64,000 nucleotides of DNA from Coleofasciculus sp. FACHB-1120 (lineage in GTDB: Bacteria > Cyanobacteriota > Cyanobacteriia > Cyanobacteriales > FACHB-T130): positions 186,001-250,000 of the forward strand of contig NZ_JACJTV010000003.1 of the NCBI RefSeq assembly GCF_014698845.1. The letters are read 5' to 3'. Below are positions 3,070 to 11,611 of the stretch, piece after piece (the first letter of the stretch is position 1; the number at the start of each line of letters is the position of its first letter). Below the pieces are notes generated by a model that saw only the letters and a list, made by a program, of their open reading frames with translations, made no database searches and had not been told where the DNA came from. The translations under genes and the position numbers were made by a program.

Positions 3070-3489
3070 TTACTTCTTCGTAGCGATCGCTAATTTTGCC
3101 CCTTTAACCTTACGCAATTGATCCATCACCGCCACGACTTGACCGTGGTTGACGCCTTCATCAGCATTTAGCACGACAAGGGTTTCTTGCTCAGATGGAA
3201 TTAGCGATCGCACTCCGGTTTCCAATTCCTCTAAATCAATTGGCTGCCGGTTCAGTGCGATTTCTCCTTCTTCATCAATTGACACCGTTACGGGTGTCGA
3301 TTTTTGAGCTTGTCCGGTTGCTGCATTTGGCAAATTCACCGATAACCCTTCTGAACGGGTCAAAAACAGTGTGGACATGATGAAAAAGGTCAAAATGGCG
3401 AAGATTACATCGATCATCGGCACGATGTTAATCTGCACTGGGATATCCGGCTCATCGGGTAGTCGCATAGGAAGGCTCTCCTTTTTCAT
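3070..3489 (-). CDS. exbD: ExbD/TolR-type biopolymer transport protein
   Basis: A 139-residue component of the proton-driven ExbB-ExbD motor that energises TonB. Residues 18-42 form one membrane helix that contains the Asp of the VPMIDVIF motif, the proton-binding residue of the family; the rest is periplasmic, with the usual SIDEEGEI segment. The gene overlaps the end of exbB by 38 nt if it starts at the MKKESLP methionine at 3489, or by 17 nt if it starts at Met8 (3468). It is cotranscribed with exbB and diverges from tonB. Confidence 0.9.
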   Translation of the reverse strand: MKKESLPMRLPDEPDIPVQINIVPMIDVIFAILTFFIMSTLFLTRSEGLSVNLPNAATGQAQKSTPVTVSIDEEGEIALNRQPIDLEELETGVRSLIPSEQETLVVLNADEGVNHGQVVAVMDQLRKVKGAKLAIATKK

Positions 3490-4102
3490 AACGGCGACGG
3501 TATAACAGTTCTAGCTGACCGCCGTACTCTTGAATGTGTGCCGACTGCCTCTGATAGAAACCGCGAAAGGCATTTGAAAACACGAGGGCAAAAATTGCCA
3601 CAATTAATCCGGTGGCGGTGGAAACTAACGCCTCGCTAATCCCTGCCGTAACACCCACCGTCTGGCTGCCTCCGACGCTTCCTAGCGTCAGCGAGGCAAA
3701 GGAGTTAATCAGCCCCAAAACCGTTCCTAGCAACCCCAGTAGAGGGGAAAGAGCGATGATCGTTTCAAACACCACATTGAATCGCTTCAATCCAGGTAAC
3801 TCGGCTTGCGCTTCACTTTCCAGCGCTAATCGAAATTCTTCTGGATTGGGTTGTTCCAGTTCTAAAGCTGCCAAAAAGATCCGCGCAATCGGCAACTCAG
3901 CATTCTGCTTTAGCCGATGCACAGCAGCTTCAGGATCGTGCTGATAAAGCTTCATCACGTCTCGCACAACCCGATCTTGCCGTCGGTTAATGCGATACCA
4001 AAACCTTGCACGCTCTATTACTAGGGCGATCGCTAATATAGAAAATCCTAGGAGTGGCCACATGACCACGCCACCCGCCGCAAAAAGATTACTAATTCCC
4101 AT
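3452..4102 (-). CDS. exbB: MotA/TolQ/ExbB proton channel protein
   Basis: A 216-residue inner-membrane proton channel subunit paired with ExbD. There is a membrane segment near the N-terminus (about 8-28), a cytoplasmic region, and two C-terminal helices around 108-132 and 148-172 containing the conserved LLGLLGTVLGLI and GISEALVSTATGL stretches. The ATG is at 4102. It diverges from tonB (4414) across a 311-nt spacer that could control both transcription units. TolQ is an alternative name, but the adjacent tonB and receptor favour ExbB. Confidence 0.9.
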   Translation of the reverse strand: MGISNLFAAGGVVMWPLLGFSILAIALVIERARFWYRINRRQDRVVRDVMKLYQHDPEAAVHRLKQNAELPIARIFLAALELEQPNPEEFRLALESEAQAELPGLKRFNVVFETIIALSPLLGLLGTVLGLINSFASLTLGSVGGSQTVGVTAGISEALVSTATGLIVAIFALVFSNAFRGFYQRQSAHIQEYGGQLELLYRRRYEKGEPSYATTR

Positions 4103-4413
4103 CTAATTTCTCTAGGGCAATCAACAAGGCTTAGCCTACCAGCTTACTGGAGTATTAAAGCTGATAGAAGTTCTCAAGAGAAATTAAACCTAATGAGAAT
4201 CTATGTCAAGCAGTTCTCCACAACTTGAGGAATAAGGAGTTTTGTTAAGTAATTTTAACAAAACTGTTGAAAAGGTTGAGAAGCCTATCAAGGAAAGGTT
4301 TGGAGAGGATTAGGCTAAGGCGATCGCAGCCTATTTTACTGGTTCTCCCTCTTGACATTTACTTCAGTGCATCTTACCTTGACCAAACAAGTGCAAATAA
4401 CTTGCAATAATCT
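4103..4413. promoter_or_regulatory. Divergent exbB / tonB control region
   Basis: A 311-nt spacer between divergent transport genes. It holds a perfect 11-bp inverted repeat, AGTTTTGTTAA (4238-4248) and TTAACAAAACT (4255-4265), with a 6-nt gap; a small TTCTC/GAGAA palindrome at 4171-4182 on the exbB side; and ACTTGCAATAA at 4400-4410, an 11-mer that also occurs upstream of the receptor gene at 9010-9020. These are plausible operator sites (Fur-like for the last), not proven ones. Confidence 0.45.
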
Positions 4414-6426
4414 ATGGGCTTGTCAAGTGTTGCTGTTCAGCAGCGAGAAAAAGAAGAAGAGGCTCTGAGGTCTTTTATAACCTACAGCCTCATCGGTTCC
4501 TTCGCACTCCATCTGGGAGTGCTGGCGATGAGCAATCGTTGGGTGAAAACATCTGACATCATTGCCGAAGAGCCAATGGAAGTTGTGGTTCTCGATCCTG
4601 AGAGCCTTCAAGCTTTGGAACCAGAGGAAGATACTCCAAAAGAAGATCAACAAGAGCAGACGCCATCGGCAGCAAGTTCAGTTGCAACCGAAGGTTCTCG
4701 TATACTTACGGGTTCTAGGCAGGAATCGGCAGAAGGTTCAGTTGCAGCAGAGAGTTCGAGTCAAAGCAGTACACCCGATACCAGTGCTGCTGCGCCAGCA
4801 TCTCAACCTCGCACGGAACCAAAAGCGGCTCCCTCTCCACTGGTAGCGTCGCAACCTACGCGCCCTGAAGTAGTACCGCAGCCAGTGCGACAGCCGCTGG
4901 CGGTAAATTTACCCCCGTTCCGACCCACTCAAACGCCCAAACGAGTCGCCCCCGATTCAGCAACACCTGTCAAGCGTGAAGAACCCGTTGCTGACACGCC
5001 CAGACCAATAGAGAAGCCGTCTTTAGAACGCGCTGAGAAACCCAATCCAGTCAGTAACTCGCAGCCGATTGCCCAGCCTAGCTCAGTTGCTGTTGCGCCG
5101 TCTCCACAGAGTGATAAGCCAGCAGCTTCAACACAGGCGAGTCCTTCTTTGCAGCAACAAACGTCTGAAAGATTTAGAGATTTAGTTAGAGGAATTACCG
5201 GCTCCAGACAAACTCAAGAAAGTGCAGGAAATAGCGCTAGCCAAACTGATAACAGCAGTACCATCGGCGGCTCTACTGTTGCTGCCGGAACGGGAAGTCT
5301 GCTAGGCAGTGGTTCTGTTACGGGTAACGGCACTGGTACAGGCTCAGGACAAGGAAGCGGTAGGGGCACTGGCACAGGTAGTGGCACTGTTACGAGTAAC
5401 GGCACTGTTACGGGTAACGGCACTGGTACAGGCTCAGGACAAGGAAGCGGTAGGGGCACTGGCACAGGTAGTGGCACTGGCACCAGCAAAGAATCAGGAA
5501 CTGGAAGAGATGTAGCGATAGTTCCGGAAAATTTCAAACCGAGAACTGAGCCAAGAACTGAGCCAAGAGACCGGGATGAAGAACGTCCTTCGAGGAGATC
5601 GGGATCGAGCCGAATCGGTTGCGTTAAATGTGACAAGCCCAACTATCCAAGTAATGCAAGACGGCAAGGTGTCGAAGGCGCATCCCAGGTCAGTGTTGAT
5701 GTTGATGAAAAAGGCAATGTGACTAATGTTCGGGTGTCGCGTTCCAGTGGTAGTAGGGAACTCGATGAAGCTGCTGTGAGAGCCGCCAGAAATTGGAAGT
5801 TCAGTTCTTCATCTGGTAAACGAGAGGGGGTTCGGGCTTCAGTTGATTTTCAGCTAGAGGGATCGGAGCGATCGCGTCGTTCGCGTGAGCGTCGTCGCAC
5901 AGAATCGGCATCTTCCAGCCGTAGCTCCGAGGCATCGACTCCCCGGCGGCGGCGGCGCTTGGAAGCGGCATCTTCTTCCACGAGCGCCTCAGAAACGCCG
6001 CGTCGTTCTCGGCGGCGGCGCTTGGAAGCGGCATCTTCTTCCACAAGTGCCTCGCAGACTCCACGTCGGGTACGGCGGCGTTTGGAAGCAGCATCTTCTT
6101 CCACAAGTGCCTCGCAGACTCCACGTCGGGCACGGCGGCGGCGCGTGGAATCTGCGGCGGCTAGTCCGACGCGGCAAGCCCCAGGGGCACGGCGACGGCG
6201 TGTAGAATCTGCGGCGGCTAGTCCGACGCGGCAAGCTCCACGTCGGGCACGGCGGCGCGTGGAATCTGCCTCTAGTCCGGTGCGGCAAGCCCCACGGGCA
6301 CGGCGGCAGCGTCGTCTAGAAGCCGGTTCAGGCAGTCAGTCACAACAAGCTCCACGGGCACGGCGGCGGAGAGCTGCACCTTCCTCAGCACAATCATCAG
6401 GTTCACCTACTACGAGCAATGAGTAA
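4414..6426 (+). CDS. tonB: TonB-family energy transducer with long repetitive tails
   Basis: A 670-residue TonB. A membrane helix lies at about 23-40. It is followed by a long Pro/Ser/Gln-rich periplasmic spacer, a Gly/Thr/Ser repeat region (about 300-365) and the TonB C-terminal domain (about 405-490), where YPSNARRQGVEGA and the ELDEAAVRAARNWKF stretch mark the family. Unusually, another 180 residues follow the domain, built of eight or so RRRR(L/V)E(A/S) units; most TonB proteins end with the domain. The start fits the membrane helix, though no clear Shine-Dalgarno precedes it. Partners should be ExbB/ExbD and the receptor at 9077. Confidence 0.85.
   Translation: MGLSSVAVQQREKEEEALRSFITYSLIGSFALHLGVLAMSNRWVKTSDIIAEEPMEVVVLDPESLQALEPEEDTPKEDQQEQTPSAASSVATEGSRILTGSRQESAEGSVAAESSSQSSTPDTSAAAPASQPRTEPKAAPSPLVASQPTRPEVVPQPVRQPLAVNLPPFRPTQTPKRVAPDSATPVKREEPVADTPRPIEKPSLERAEKPNPVSNSQPIAQPSSVAVAPSPQSDKPAASTQASPSLQQQTSERFRDLVRGITGSRQTQESAGNSASQTDNSSTIGGSTVAAGTGSLLGSGSVTGNGTGTGSGQGSGRGTGTGSGTVTSNGTVTGNGTGTGSGQGSGRGTGTGSGTGTSKESGTGRDVAIVPENFKPRTEPRTEPRDRDEERPSRRSGSSRIGCVKCDKPNYPSNARRQGVEGASQVSVDVDEKGNVTNVRVSRSSGSRELDEAAVRAARNWKFSSSSGKREGVRASVDFQLEGSERSRRSRERRRTESASSSRSSEASTPRRRRRLEAASSSTSASETPRRSRRRRLEAASSSTSASQTPRRVRRRLEAASSSTSASQTPRRARRRRVESAAASPTRQAPGARRRRVESAAASPTRQAPRRARRRVESASSPVRQAPRARRQRRLEAGSGSQSQQAPRARRRRAAPSSAQSSGSPTTSNE
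5316..5479 (+). repeat. 90-bp-period direct repeat in the tonB linker
   Basis: A stretch starting TGTTACGGGTAACGG at 5316 recurs at 5406. The roughly 74-nt repeated segments (5316-5389 and 5406-5479) are nearly identical and encode Gly/Thr/Ser/Gln/Arg low-complexity sequence. The period is a multiple of three, so gain or loss of a unit keeps the frame. Confidence 0.85.
5930..6380 (+). repeat. Arg-rich minisatellite in the tonB 3' end
   Basis: About eight in-frame units of roughly 51-63 nt, each starting with CGGCGGCGG-like Arg codons, then (L/V)E(A/S) and a Ser/Ala/Thr/Gln/Pro spacer. Neighbouring units are close copies (for example around 6000-6120), with length differences in multiples of three. 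It is GC-rich compared with its surroundings, and it creates long spurious antisense reading frames. Confidence 0.85.
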
Positions 6427-6502
6427 TTGCCTCTCAATCAGAGTGGGTATAGACTCTTGAACTGATTGTCGAATACCCAATCACTCGTCGCTAAGTAAAC
6501 TT

Positions 6503-7669
6503 ATGCACAGCATTAAGACAGCGATCGCAATTTTAGGAGTTGTTATCGGAGTGGGTGGAGTAACCCCTGGAGTTCGTGCCCAGTCAGAAGCATCCCCCGC
6601 TCCTACCAGCCCTCAAATTAAACCGCCTGCTTCTACCAGTCCCCGCCTCCAAGGGAATCCTGAGGCGCTGCTCCAACAGGGTTTGGACAAACTTGACGCC
6701 GGAGACTACAAGGCAGCGGTCGATCTGTTGTCGAAGGTGCTGGAAGTAAATCCTAATGATACGGAAGCTTACTACAATCGAGCCGTGGCTCTGGTTGAGC
6801 TAGAGGACTACAAGAAAGCGATCGCTGATTATAGCAAAGTGCTACAACTCGATCCCCAGGATGATGAAGCTTACTTGAATCGAGGACTAGCTCGTACCGA
6901 GTTAGAAGACGACGCCGGAGCGATCGCTGATTACAGCGAAGTTATCAAATTGAAGCCCGATCAAGCAGAAGCTTACTATCAAAGAGGAATCGCTTATGCT
7001 CAGCTAGAGGAAGATAATAAAGCGATTGAAGACCTTCAGAAAGCCTCTGAACTCTTTGCTACGCAAGGCAACCCAAATCAGTCCAAAGAAGCACTGCTCA
7101 GCATTGATGTTGACGACAAAGGAAATGTGACTAATGTTCGGGTGTCGCGTTCCAGTGGTAGTAGGGAACTTGATGAAGCTGCTGTGAGAGCCGCCAGAAA
7201 TTGGAAGTTCAGTTCTTCATCTGGTAAACGAGAGGGGGTTCGGGCTTCAGTTGATTTTCAGCTAGAGGGATCGCAGCGATCGCGAGAACGACGCGAGCAT
7301 CGTCGTCGCTTAGAATCGGCATCTTCCGACCGTAGCTCCGAGGCATTGACTCCCCGGCGTCTGAGAGTCGCACCTTCCTCAGCAGAATCATCGGGTTCAG
7401 CCATGCTCAGCTTTGATGTTGATGACAAAGGAAATGTCACCAATGTTCGCCTGTCTCGTTCCAGCGGTAGTAGGGAACTCGATGAAGCTGCTGTGAGAGC
7501 CGCCAGAAATTGGAAGTTTGATTCTTCCTCTGGTAGACAACAGGGGGTTCCGGCTTCAGTTGATTTTCAGCTAGAGGGATCGGAGCGTTCGCGTTGTTCT
7601 TGCGAACATCGTCGCTCAGAATCGGCATCTTCCGACCGTAGCTCGGAGCCATCACTCCCCCAGCGGTGA
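6503..7669 (+). CDS. Chimeric exported protein: TPR domain fused to two TonB C-terminal domains
   Basis: A 388-residue protein. Residues 1-26 form a signal peptide ending VRAQ, followed by a PTSP/IKPPA linker and four tetratricopeptide repeats (about 50-195) that nearly match the protein at 7806. After SKEALL the sequence switches to two TonB C-terminal domain copies (about 197-260 and 300-362), each with GNVTNVR and the ELDEAAVRAARNWKF stretch, separated and followed by Arg/Ser-rich tails copied from the preceding tonB. It has no membrane helix other than the signal. The TGA at 7667 falls inside sequence that continues to match the tonB tail up to TAA at 7729, so the C-terminus is probably truncated. 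Confidence 0.75.
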   Translation: MHSIKTAIAILGVVIGVGGVTPGVRAQSEASPAPTSPQIKPPASTSPRLQGNPEALLQQGLDKLDAGDYKAAVDLLSKVLEVNPNDTEAYYNRAVALVELEDYKKAIADYSKVLQLDPQDDEAYLNRGLARTELEDDAGAIADYSEVIKLKPDQAEAYYQRGIAYAQLEEDNKAIEDLQKASELFATQGNPNQSKEALLSIDVDDKGNVTNVRVSRSSGSRELDEAAVRAARNWKFSSSSGKREGVRASVDFQLEGSQRSRERREHRRRLESASSDRSSEALTPRRLRVAPSSAESSGSAMLSFDVDDKGNVTNVRLSRSSGSRELDEAAVRAARNWKFDSSSGRQQGVPASVDFQLEGSERSRCSCEHRRSESASSDRSSEPSLPQR

Positions 7670-7729
7670 CGGAAAGCTGCACCTTCCTCAGCAGAATCAT
7701 CAGGTTCAGCTACTACGAACAATGAATAA
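7670..7729 (+). pseudogene. Untranslated remnant of the copied tonB tail
   Basis: In the frame of the preceding gene, the 19 codons after the TGA at 7667 encode KAAPSSAESSGSATT-type sequence ending NNE and TAA, closely matching the last residues of the tonB at 4414. The following spacer (7730-7805) likewise matches 6427-6502. This shows a duplicated gene end disabled by one in-frame stop. Confidence 0.75.
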
Positions 7730-7805
7730 TTGCCTCTCAACCAGAGTGGGTATACACTCTTGAACTGATTGTTGAATACCCAATCACTCGTCACCAAGTA
7801 AATTT

Positions 7806-8483
7806 ATGAACATCAAGACAGCGATCGCAATTTTAGGAGTTGTTATCGGAGTGGGTGGAGTGACGCCGGGAGTTCGTGCCCAGTCAGAACCGTCTCCCGC
7901 TCCTACCAGTCCTCAAATCAAACCGCCTGCACCTACCAGTCCTCAAATCAAACCGCCTGCTTCTACCAGTCCCCAAATTAAACCACCTGCTTCTACCAGT
8001 CCCCGCCTCCAAGGGAATCCTGAGGCGCTGCTCCAACAGGGTTTGGACAAACTTGACGCCGGAGACTACAAGGCAGCCGTTGATCTGTTGTCGAGGGTAC
8101 TGGAAGTAAATCCCAATGATACGGAAGCTTACTACAACCGAGCTGTGGCTCTGGTTGAACTAGAGGATTACGAGAAAGCGATCGCGGATTACAGCAAAGT
8201 GCTGCAACTCGATCCCAAGGATGATGAAGCTTACTTGAATCGAGGATTAGCTCGTACCGAGTTAGAAGACGACGCCGGAGCGATCGCTGATTACAGTGAA
8301 GTTATCAAATTGAAGCCCGATCAAGCAGAAGCTTACTATCAAAGAGGAATCGCTTATGCTCAGATAGAGGAAGACAATAAAGCGATTGAAGACCTTCAGA
8401 AAGCCTCTGAACTCTTCGCTACGCAAGGCAAGCCAGATGAGTCCAAACAAGCACTGGCTCTGATCAAAAAACTTCAGCCATAG
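7806..8483 (+). CDS. Exported tetratricopeptide-repeat protein
   Basis: A 225-residue protein with a signal peptide (1-24, ending VRAQ), a Pro-rich linker with repeated PTSPQIKPPA units (one more round than its paralogue), and four TPR units (about 70-215) with the usual AYYNRAVALVELEDYEKAIADY pattern split across helices. It probably scaffolds protein contacts in the periplasm. It is the intact version of the N-terminal half of the gene at 6503, ends with KKLQP, and is followed by a strong terminator. Position suggests a role with TonB, but this is inferred from context only. Confidence 0.82.
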   Translation: MNIKTAIAILGVVIGVGGVTPGVRAQSEPSPAPTSPQIKPPAPTSPQIKPPASTSPQIKPPASTSPRLQGNPEALLQQGLDKLDAGDYKAAVDLLSRVLEVNPNDTEAYYNRAVALVELEDYEKAIADYSKVLQLDPKDDEAYLNRGLARTELEDDAGAIADYSEVIKLKPDQAEAYYQRGIAYAQIEEDNKAIEDLQKASELFATQGKPDESKQALALIKKLQP

Positions 8484-8491
8484 CCTGAATC

Positions 8492-8530
8492 GAGAGGCTG
8501 AGCGTTACTCAGCCTCTCATCTGTTTTTTA
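8492..8530 (+). terminator. Rho-independent terminator of the tonB/TPR unit
   Basis: GAGAGGCTGAG (8492-8502) and CTCAGCCTCTC (8508-8518) form a perfect 11-bp stem with a 5-nt loop, followed by a T-rich stretch, 8 nt after the TPR stop codon. Confidence 0.9.
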
Positions 8531-9076
8531 AATTTTTTTAAATTTGATGGATTATTGAACCCGTACCGCCGCTTCAAAAGCCGCTAGGTGGGTTGAGTTT
8601 TTTTGCTAATTTTTCGGCACTCTAGCTAATTTTTCGGCACTCTAGGCGCGTGTAGAGTTAGTTGCGATCGCCCTCGTGGTGTCTCCATTCAGGATTTTGC
8701 AGCCATCGGATTTAGAAACAAGGCGAAAGGCGAGCGTTCTCCACTCTAAACCAGCCTGCTAGTGTGATTAAATTTACCTTTCTTGAATAACTTTCTTAGT
8801 TAGAGAAAACACTTTTATAGCGTTTTCTCAATTATTCGATTGCTCAACTTCTTTAAACATTGGTTAAAGAAGTTAGGCTTGAGCCAACCCTGAATAATAA
8901 ATGCCCAAAACAAGCCATTTGTCAATCTTTCTCTTAGGCGATGCCTTCTAATTTTTCTACTTGACTTTTACATGGGCGTCGTTTTATCTTAACCACACTA
9001 ATGATAATTACTTGCAATAAAAAATCAGGCTTGTTAATCAAGACCTGGGTGCATAAATTAGGTGTGTGGAAACGGA
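8531..9076. other. Spacer upstream of the receptor gene
   Basis: No convincing gene. It contains a tandem 20-bp direct repeat (8605-8624 and 8625-8644, unit GCTAATTTTTCGGCACTCTA) and, near its end, the iron-box-like sequence described separately. Its length suggests a regulated leader. Confidence 0.6.
9001..9026 (+). promoter_or_regulatory. Candidate Fur (iron) box upstream of the receptor
   Basis: The AT-rich sequence ATGATAATTACTTGCAATAA (9001-9020) resembles cyanobacterial FurA boxes (GATAAT-type half sites) and lies 57 nt before the receptor ATG. Its 11-mer ACTTGCAATAA is shared with 4400-4410 before tonB. The match is by eye only. Confidence 0.45.
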
Positions 9077-11611
9077 ATGAAACTACAGCAATTACTTCCT
9101 GGCTTGTTGCTCGCAGGCTCAGTTGCCATGACAGTGGCTCAGCCAGTAAAGGCTGAGGTCGTACAAGTCACTGGCGTGCAACTCAACTCAACGCCCAATG
9201 GCTTGCAGGTGATTTTGCAGACGACAAATGGAGCAGCGCCCCAAGTGGTCACGTCCAGCTATGACCAAACCCTGCTTATTGACCTGCTTAACGCCCAGTT
9301 AAGTCTTCCAGAAGGGGATACGTTTACTCAGGAAAACCCAGCTTTCGGTATAACTTCTGTAACCGTAAACCGCTTGTATGACAACAGTATTCGGGTAACG
9401 ATCAAAGGCGTCGCAGAACTGCCAATGGCAGAGGTGGTACCGAGTCCGCAGGGAGTGGTACTCAGCTTAACGACCACTTCAGAAACAGCTGAGGCTCCCC
9501 CTAGCCAAACACCAGAGACGACTGACTCTGAGCCTTCTGAGTCGCCCCAGACCCCCACAGAGGCTGAATCTGCTGACGAAACCCAACCAGACGATCTAGT
9601 TGAAGAGCCAGAGGAAATTGAACTGGTGGTAACGGGTCAGCAAGAAGGGGGATATAGAGTCATTGACGCCACAACCGCCACGCGAACCGATACACCTTTG
9701 CGCGACGTTCCTCAGTCCATTCAGGTTGTTCCTCGACAGGTGATTGAGGATCAACAAGTTGTAAGAATCACAGAAGCTGCACGCAACGTTAGCGGTGTTG
9801 TGCGAACAGAAGGCTATGGAGGCGCTACTGATAACTACACCATCCGAGGATTTGCCATCTCCAATAACTTGAGAAATGGTTTCAGCGATGCTGGTTCTTA
9901 CTCATTAACTGATGTCGCCAACATAGAACGAGTCGAAGTTCTCAAAGGACCAGCTTCGGTGCTTTATGGTCAGATTGAACCGGGCGGTGTCGTGAATTAC
10001 ATCACCAAGCAACCACTGAGCGAACCCTTTTATGCCGCTTCATTTACGGCTGGAAGTTACGACTTCTATCGCCCATCGATAGATATTTCTGGTCCCCTCG
10101 ACCCTGACAAAAATGTATTGTATCGATTGAATGTTGCCTATGAAAATTCGGGTAGTTTTAGAGATTTCGTAGACAGCGAGCTTTTCGTAGTTGCACCTAT
10201 CTTGAGCTTCAAGATTACTGATAAAACTACCTTAACCTTGGAGTATGAATACCTGGATCTCGATCGGACTTTCGATCGCGGCTTTCCACCGCTAACCGCG
10301 ATGTTTGATCTGCCCATCAGTCGTTATTTAGGAGAACCCAACGACAGTTACAGCCATAGAAGCCATAAAGCTGGTTATGTTCTAGATCATCGTTTTAGTG
10401 AAAACTGGCGGATTCGGAATGCCTTCTCCGCTCAAATTGTTGATCTAGAGCGTACAAATGTTCAAGCACGGACTTTTCAATTAGAGGGAGACGGACGCAC
10501 CTTAAGACGACGATTTAACGACGCTGATGAATACAGAGAAAATTATTCTCTCCAAACAGACTTAGTAGGAAAATTCAATACTGGCTCAATCAGTCATCAA
10601 CTTCTCCTGGGGCTTGAGTTAAGCAGAGCTAAGGCTGGCTACACATTACTCAGAGCGAATTTCCCTTCCCTTGATATTTACAACCCAGTTTACGGGTTTC
10701 CGCGCCCAACCAGTTTTGGTGATGGTTTTGGTAGGGACGAAAACACCGATACGTTAGGTATTTATGTACAAGATCAGCTGACATTGTTGCCAAACCTGAA
10801 ATTACTGGTTGGCGGTCGATTTGATTCGGTCGATCTTGACATCGAAGATGTTTCAGACGCTTTGAATGGAAGCGAAGCTGAAAAATCCAGCCGTTACTTT
10901 GAAGCCTTTTCACCCCGCGTTGGAATTGTTTATCAGCCGATAGAACCAATTTCACTCTATGCCAGCTACAGCCGCTCTTTTAGACCAAATATTTTTGCTT
11001 TTACGTCGGACGGACAGCTAATAGAGCCTGAAAGAGGTACCCAATACGAAGCCGGAATTAAAGGTGAATTCTTAGATGGTAGATTGTCCACGACGCTGGC
11101 AGCTTACCAGATAACGAAGACAAACGTCGCTACGACAGATCCTAATGATACTGATTTCTCAATTGCAGCGGGAGAAGTTAAGAGCCGAGGCATCGAATTG
11201 GACGTAAGGGGAGAAATTAGACCCGGTTGGAATGTTATTGCATCTTATGCACATATGGATGCTTTTGTTAGCAAAGATGAGAGTATTCCTGAAGGGGACG
11301 AATTAGTTAACGCGCCAAATAATACTGCTAGCTTGTGGATGACTTATGAATTCCAAAGAGGTGCTTTGCAAGGATTAGGTTTTGGAGCTGGATTATATTT
11401 TGTGGGCGCACGGGAAGCGGAGCTTCCAAATACCATCGAAATCCCTTCGTATTTGAGAACTGATGCCGCTATCTTCTATCGGCGAGACAATTACCGAGCT
11501 GCTCTGAATATCAAGAATCTCTTTGATACAAAGTATTACGATTCTCAGGGCTTCTTAGTCTACCCCGGAGCGCCTTTAACTTTGCTGGGGACATTTGGGG
11601 TGGAATTTTGA
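9077..11611 (+). CDS. TonB-dependent siderophore receptor with N-terminal AMIN domain
   Basis: An 844-residue outer-membrane receptor for ferric siderophores (FhuA-type). It has a signal peptide (about 1-25), an AMIN domain (about 27-135) typical of cyanobacterial receptors, an acidic Pro/Ser/Glu linker, a TonB-box-like IELVVTG near 190, then the plug (TDTPLRDVPQSIQVVP, YTIRGF, ERVEVLKGPASVLYG) and a 22-strand barrel ending in the terminal Phe of GVEF. I chose ATG 9077 because the signal peptide begins there; a GTG at 9062 adds five residues. Energised by ExbBD-TonB nearby, and likely iron-repressed. Confidence 0.9.
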   Translation: MKLQQLLPGLLLAGSVAMTVAQPVKAEVVQVTGVQLNSTPNGLQVILQTTNGAAPQVVTSSYDQTLLIDLLNAQLSLPEGDTFTQENPAFGITSVTVNRLYDNSIRVTIKGVAELPMAEVVPSPQGVVLSLTTTSETAEAPPSQTPETTDSEPSESPQTPTEAESADETQPDDLVEEPEEIELVVTGQQEGGYRVIDATTATRTDTPLRDVPQSIQVVPRQVIEDQQVVRITEAARNVSGVVRTEGYGGATDNYTIRGFAISNNLRNGFSDAGSYSLTDVANIERVEVLKGPASVLYGQIEPGGVVNYITKQPLSEPFYAASFTAGSYDFYRPSIDISGPLDPDKNVLYRLNVAYENSGSFRDFVDSELFVVAPILSFKITDKTTLTLEYEYLDLDRTFDRGFPPLTAMFDLPISRYLGEPNDSYSHRSHKAGYVLDHRFSENWRIRNAFSAQIVDLERTNVQARTFQLEGDGRTLRRRFNDADEYRENYSLQTDLVGKFNTGSISHQLLLGLELSRAKAGYTLLRANFPSLDIYNPVYGFPRPTSFGDGFGRDENTDTLGIYVQDQLTLLPNLKLLVGGRFDSVDLDIEDVSDALNGSEAEKSSRYFEAFSPRVGIVYQPIEPISLYASYSRSFRPNIFAFTSDGQLIEPERGTQYEAGIKGEFLDGRLSTTLAAYQITKTNVATTDPNDTDFSIAAGEVKSRGIELDVRGEIRPGWNVIASYAHMDAFVSKDESIPEGDELVNAPNNTASLWMTYEFQRGALQGLGFGAGLYFVGAREAELPNTIEIPSYLRTDAAIFYRRDNYRAALNIKNLFDTKYYDSQGFLVYPGAPLTLLGTFGVEF

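Follow-up and report, generated by a model that had tools for sequence, protein, structure and literature searches.

A TPR–TonB fusion gene apparently formed by tandem duplication at the tonB locus of Coleofasciculus sp. FACHB-1120

We analysed a 64,000-nucleotide stretch of DNA (the window) from a draft assembly of 6.2 Mb in 79 contigs, with completeness 100 and contamination 0.31. The window contains 78 copies of GCGATCGC, which we take to be HIP1. These copies, together with the AMIN domain on the receptor and the Pseudanabaena relatives of the TonB proteins, indicate a cyanobacterial origin. The features at the tonB locus are given below, with the evidence for each in brackets (CTD, C-terminal domain; TPR, tetratricopeptide repeat).

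3070–3489, − strand: exbD (Pfam ExbD, E=2.5e-31)
3452–4102, − strand: exbB (Pfam MotA_ExbB, E=2.4e-33)
4414–6426, + strand: tonB, 670 aa (ORF list, TonB_C profile, Pfam, hydrophobicity)
5681–5955, + strand: T0, the reference copy of the CTD/tail repeat, within tonB (repeat search)
6427–6502, + strand: 76-nt spacer, copy 1 (TAA-to-ATG gap, read from the sequence, and repeat search)
6503–7669, + strand: fusion ORF, 388 aa (ORF list, Pfam, AlphaFold model, stop analysis)
7089–7363, + strand: F1, copy 2 of the CTD/tail repeat (repeat search; TonB_C profile 20–71)
7398–7672, + strand: F2, copy 3 of the CTD/tail repeat (repeat search; TonB_C profile 14–71)
7670–7729, + strand: copied end of the tonB tail with its TAA, outside the fusion ORF and in frame past its TGA
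7730–7805, + strand: 76-nt spacer, copy 2 (TAA-to-ATG gap, read from the sequence, and repeat search)
7806–8483, + strand: full-length TPR gene, 225 aa (ORF list, Pfam; signal-peptide-like N-terminus by eye)
8492–8518, + strand: terminator-like hairpin past the TPR gene, 11 pairs then T-rich (consensus scan, suggestive only)
9062–11611, + strand: AMIN-plug-barrel receptor, siderophore-type (TonB-siderophor model above its cut-off; TonB-box-like EEIELVVTG)

The tonB product consists of an N-terminal hydrophobic segment containing His33, a Pro/Gly-rich linker, a CTD (residues 408–477) and an Arg/Ser-rich tail of about 190 aa. With its His anchor, linker, full CTD and adjoining exbB and exbD genes it has the make-up of a TonB energy transducer, and of the three TonB_C matches in the genome it alone begins at the start of the profile (positions 2–71 of 79). 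It shares the layout of TonB (Pfam PF03544/TIGR01352), with a C-terminal extension like that which the extract of PMC8597729 describes for Anabaena TonB2-4. The tails of several other cyanobacterial TonBs are Arg/Glu/Gln- or Pro-rich, and others have nearly none. The tail of tonB in the window (5890–6420) contains Arg/Ser repeats of about 20 codons, and its length is unlike that in G001, the second of the two genomes of the genus that were searched, the other being the window's own. In the Gly-rich linker (5315–5479) a 75-nt stretch occurs twice, 100% identical and with starts 90 nt apart, which on sequence grounds is a very recent, in-frame repeat. The lengths of both linker and tail are unequal between G001 and the window's own genome (G000), and the locus is therefore prone to repeat-driven change.

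The fusion ORF encodes, in order, an N-terminus that resembles a signal peptide by eye, a Pro-rich stretch, a TPR domain (about residues 51–199), F1 and F2. The TPR part stops short of the parent protein's end and passes into the first β-strand of a CTD. A short Arg/Ser tail separates the truncated F1 from F2, and another short tail follows F2 before the TGA at 7667–7669. This stop costs the copied tail its final 20 codons, and 19 in-frame codons lie between it and the copied TAA. Pfam identified one TonB_C domain in tonB, and two TonB_C and four TPR_1 domains in the fusion, TonB_C and TPR_1 being above cut-offs; the downstream gene has four TPR_1 stretches, confirming tandem TPR repeats as in the fusion. 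The predicted in-frame joining of the first TPR copy to two TonB CTDs is thus found in ORF 6503–7669, with the qualification that both CTDs are partial. They match positions 20–71 and 14–71 of the 79-position TonB_C profile, compared with 2–71 in tonB, and both lack the 'CxxC...YP..AR' segment and first helix of tonB.

The fusion also differs from TonB in having neither the His-bearing anchor nor the linker. Its sole strongly hydrophobic stretch is the N-terminus (19-residue windows starting at 2–8). The one His there is residue 2, ahead of the hydrophobic core, whereas His33 of tonB lies inside the helix (by eye); the core itself has no His and is followed by VRAQS. The Ser/His motor-binding motif of the transducer anchor, taken as described in the extract of PMC12204202, is by eye absent from the fusion. 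As it has no His-bearing helix (by eye), ExbBD should not drive the fusion, which without the anchor of tonB should not be energised. The N-terminus could conceivably be an uncleaved anchor.

The original prediction was of a tandem duplication of CTD, tail, 76-nt spacer and TPR gene, with CTD copies near 5690, 7100 and 7405. Repeat searches and self-BLASTN agree on this arrangement, placing the copies at 5681–5955, 7089–7363 and 7398–7672. The latter two, covering the CTD and the start of the tail, are 78% and 85% identical to the first without gaps. Two further repeats, 6361–6512 with 7664–7815 (90% identical) and 6596–6895 with 7956–8255 (93%), take in the tail end, spacer and TPR gene; self-BLASTN of the locus gave 86% over 796 columns with three gap openings. 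Describing the copies as nearly identical was therefore too strong: they are 78–93% alike, and dS is 0.197 for the TPR pair and 0.267 for F2 compared with tonB. A consensus scan of 4100–9100 found two terminator-like sites (5.4 in shuffled sequences) and one promoter-like site, at 8961 (3.3 in shuffles), and gave no site of either kind in the two spacers. Rfam gave nothing at the gathering threshold in the window. A structured RNA in the spacer was considered and rejected, as 82-nt stretches containing each spacer fold like shuffled sequences (z −0.73 and −0.40). Directly past the TPR gene there is a perfect 20-nt tandem repeat (8605–8644).

To place the duplication in time, we compared the locus with G001. 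There tonB (705 aa) is followed directly by a TPR gene (236 aa) and then a receptor, with no fusion, and the flanking DNA is collinear with the window, at 87.6% and 91.4% identity on the two sides. This unduplicated order further supports tandem duplication as the origin of the fusion. The dS of 0.197 between the two TPR copies compares with 0.297 (fusion TPR) and 0.324 (full TPR copy) to G001, and with 0.11–0.34 to G001 for five neighbouring genes. Because the divergence of the TPR copies is below that to G001, at about 60–65% of it, the duplication most likely postdates the split from G001 and is not very recent; the predicted 'recent' origin is not supported. The one close pair of CTDs is F1 and tonB (dS 0.092). 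In G004, from another genus of the same family, tonB is followed by a receptor with no TPR gene between them. Comparison with relatives, proposed earlier as a check, thus yielded a close relative without the fusion and, in the open frame of the fusion, one late nonsense codon and no frameshift of the kind that decay would leave. Taken at the level of sequence, the fusion appears to be a genuine gene restricted to this lineage.

The suggestion of gene conversion was examined at 32 variable sites in four CTD sequences. Agreement between tonB and F1 was 1 of the first 8 sites and 22 of the last 24, a mosaic that is significant by maximum chi-square with permutation (p=0.0004). The longest-run test was weaker for this pair (p=0.06), gave p=0.006 for T0 and F2, and was at least 0.28 for the other four pairs. 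At six sites T0 and F1 have one letter in common and F2 and G001 another, and the T0/F1 letters therefore seem to be derived. This mosaic pattern points to gene conversion, in either direction, between F1 and tonB.

We looked for similar arrangements elsewhere. Conservation of the tonB–TPR linkage beyond the genus was rejected: among 47 TonB-CTD loci (several of them sharing a genome, mostly with about 1.5 kb each side), a TPR profile at E≤0.01 found a TPR gene only at the same-genus locus L007. In 59 other relatives, 53 of them with a TonB_C match, no two CTD matches lay within 3 kb on one contig; where a contig carried two, they were widely spaced, by about 12 kb in G019 for instance. Among 290 other genomes of the class (83 of them with a match at E≤1e-8) there was no tandem pair and no match spanning both query CTDs. 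These tandem-CTD searches score limited candidates from a loose first look, so that misses are possible. A scan of genome contigs returned eight loci, of which six matched the TPR portion alone and two were Pseudanabaena TonBs; none was assignable to the genus. Our literature search found no paper pairing a TonB C-terminal domain and a tetratricopeptide repeat in a fusion, which is not a claim of absence from print, and none on TtpC with TonB and tetratricopeptide; the extract of PMC10878165 does not mention TPR.

Selection was assessed by parsimony with G001 as outgroup, against a neutral expectation of 70% N changes. The TPR part of the fusion has 6 N and 13 S changes (p=6e-4 against neutrality); for the full-length TPR gene the counts are 4 N and 12 S. 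Changes unique to F2 number 3 N and 4 S, compatible with neutrality (p=0.12), and those unique to F1 1 N and 0 S. The proposed comparison of dN/dS between copies thus shows purifying selection on the TPR half of the fusion, where exchange between the TPR copies could mimic constraint, and leaves the CTD counts compatible with neutrality. In simulations under neutrality, a stop-free frame of 388 codons had probabilities of 0.144, 0.024 and 0.006 at branch lengths of 0.05, 0.10 and 0.15. The CTD part would be stop-free by chance with a probability of 0.07–0.38 over the branch lengths tried, and its open frame is therefore weak evidence.

An AlphaFold model of the full-length fusion (5-row alignment) gave residues 51–190 a 10-residue mean pLDDT of 89–98. 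Most CTD residues were below 50, and both CTDs came out lacking strand three, which is where contact with the TonB box is expected. Given this poor confidence in the CTDs, F2 was modelled apart (20-row alignment), and was predicted to fold as strand-strand-helix-strand, the β-β-α-β core of TonB, with 52 of 100 residues at pLDDT 70–90 and none at 90 or above. Foldseek placed TonB-family CTDs on top for this model, with E≤0.001 for two FusB chains only. TonB bound to FhuA (2grx_C) matched with E 3.4e-3 (1.9 Å, 62 columns) and TonB bound to BtuB (2gsk_B) with E 4.6e-3 (1.6 Å, 61 columns).

Besides its one full TonB_C match, the genome encodes two receptors with a Plug match, each with a box-like EEIELVVT; the best NCBIfam match of the second is the vitamin B12 receptor model (149 bits, cut-off 599.7). 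In three genomes, from two genera of the family, the gene immediately ahead of a BtuB-like AMIN-plug-barrel receptor or its counterpart is a related TPR gene:

L063:2646–5769 (G000, contig 4): related TPR gene and BtuB-like receptor
L064:4791–7921 (G001): related TPR gene and BtuB-like receptor
L065:1277–4574 (G004): related TPR gene and BtuB-like receptor

This order was found at 3 of the 30 TPR loci of one search (L066–L095). Since a TPR gene precedes the receptor in three genomes, the arrangement suggests, without proving it, that the TPR proteins of such loci serve TonB-dependent receptors, possibly as an accessory factor. Also in G000, a cobalamin riboswitch (RF00174, 59.8 bits, L063:7921–8070) lies upstream of a HupE-like gene (labelled by eye), about 2.2 kb from the second TPR gene and apparently in another operon.

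Two further known systems resemble the fusion in part. Positions 9–132 of the MxcH-type receptor model NF038079 match the tonB CTD and tail (E=3.4e-8, 32 bits, cut-off 925), and this model match suggests that TonB-like CTDs also occur outside the anchored transducer, in another protein. In MxcH-type proteins the remainder is a receptor, whereas in the fusion it is a TPR protein and there are two CTDs. CpoB/YbgF, in the extract of PMC12204202 the TPR protein of Tol-Pal, is likewise a TPR protein that works in the periplasm alongside a motor and its transducer; it differs in that TIGR02795 scores only 39.4 bits with the fusion and 43.1 with the TPR gene, under its cut-off of 90.1.

We put at about even the chances of an account in which the fusion was born by duplication, its TPR half being kept as an extra dose and its CTDs as passengers. 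An ancestral tonB–TPR pair would have been duplicated in tandem, with a junction at which the last TPR helix meets strand one of the tonB CTD. The outcome would be an intact tonB, then the TPR-CTD fusion in frame, then a complete TPR gene, all of which may be co-transcribed. The fused CTD and tail would then have been doubled again and the tails shortened, tonB and one fused copy would have exchanged a tract, and the end would have been clipped by a premature stop. The product would most likely be exported to the periplasm and unanchored, as predicted from the N-terminus by eye. Its TPR half was probably retained because it doubles the dose of a TPR protein associated with receptors, the CTDs could do no more than bind TonB boxes passively, exerting no pull, and tonB itself would remain the energy transducer. 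We count against the receptor-partner role that the G004 receptor follows tonB without an intervening TPR gene, that the terminator-like site at 8492–8518 parts the TPR gene from the receptor in the window, and that the second TPR protein, encoded next to the BtuB-like receptor, is only about 35% identical to that of the locus.

The fusion might instead be a working periplasmic regulator, whose TPR domain docks at receptors while its CTDs pair with TonB boxes, so that receptors are held closed, shielded or handed to TonB. The F2 model and its matches to receptor-bound TonB, the two Plug receptors with box-like sequences, the in-frame position of both CTDs and the company that TPR genes keep with receptors are all consistent with such a role. 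We nevertheless consider it rather unlikely, since AF2 may return the family fold even for crippled domains, the full-length model has mostly low-confidence CTDs without the third strand, both CTDs have lost the CxxC segment and helix one, the changes in F2 and F1 do not set them apart from neutrality, and the open CTD frame is weak evidence. More doubtful still is a specific form of this idea, in which a newborn soluble protein, with a TPR scaffold that docks at receptors and two TonB CTDs, would sit unenergised on TonB boxes and so brake or adapt the uptake of iron and cobalamin, and in which the fusion may also store variants that reach the single tonB through gene conversion; a decoy role is possible. 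That the fusion is a by-product heading for decay, with no part selected, would fit its absence from G001, the late nonsense codon and the shortened tails, and is rather unlikely in view of the 6 N to 13 S changes on its TPR branch, the improbability of a stop-free frame under neutrality and the lack of a frameshift. Versions from two related strains could also have been stitched in tandem in a draft assembly of 79 contigs. Such an artefact is very improbable: the junctions are in frame and inside genes, the CTD is present three times, the T0/F1 tract is unlike a simple outcome of two haplotypes, the contig is 402 kb long and contamination is 0.31.

The locus is thus an interesting but modest case of a lineage-specific fusion, for which an active brake or adaptor function is possible and unsupported by the selection data. 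It offers a fusion gene that can be dated and that arose through local duplication next to an operon, and a species of the same genus still shows the unfused order. Binding of TonB boxes by the fused CTDs, if it occurs, would make the protein a natural experiment on receptor regulation by an unanchored TonB domain. Separately, the way exported TPR genes and TonB-dependent receptors are paired in this family points to a possible accessory factor in cyanobacterial nutrient uptake.
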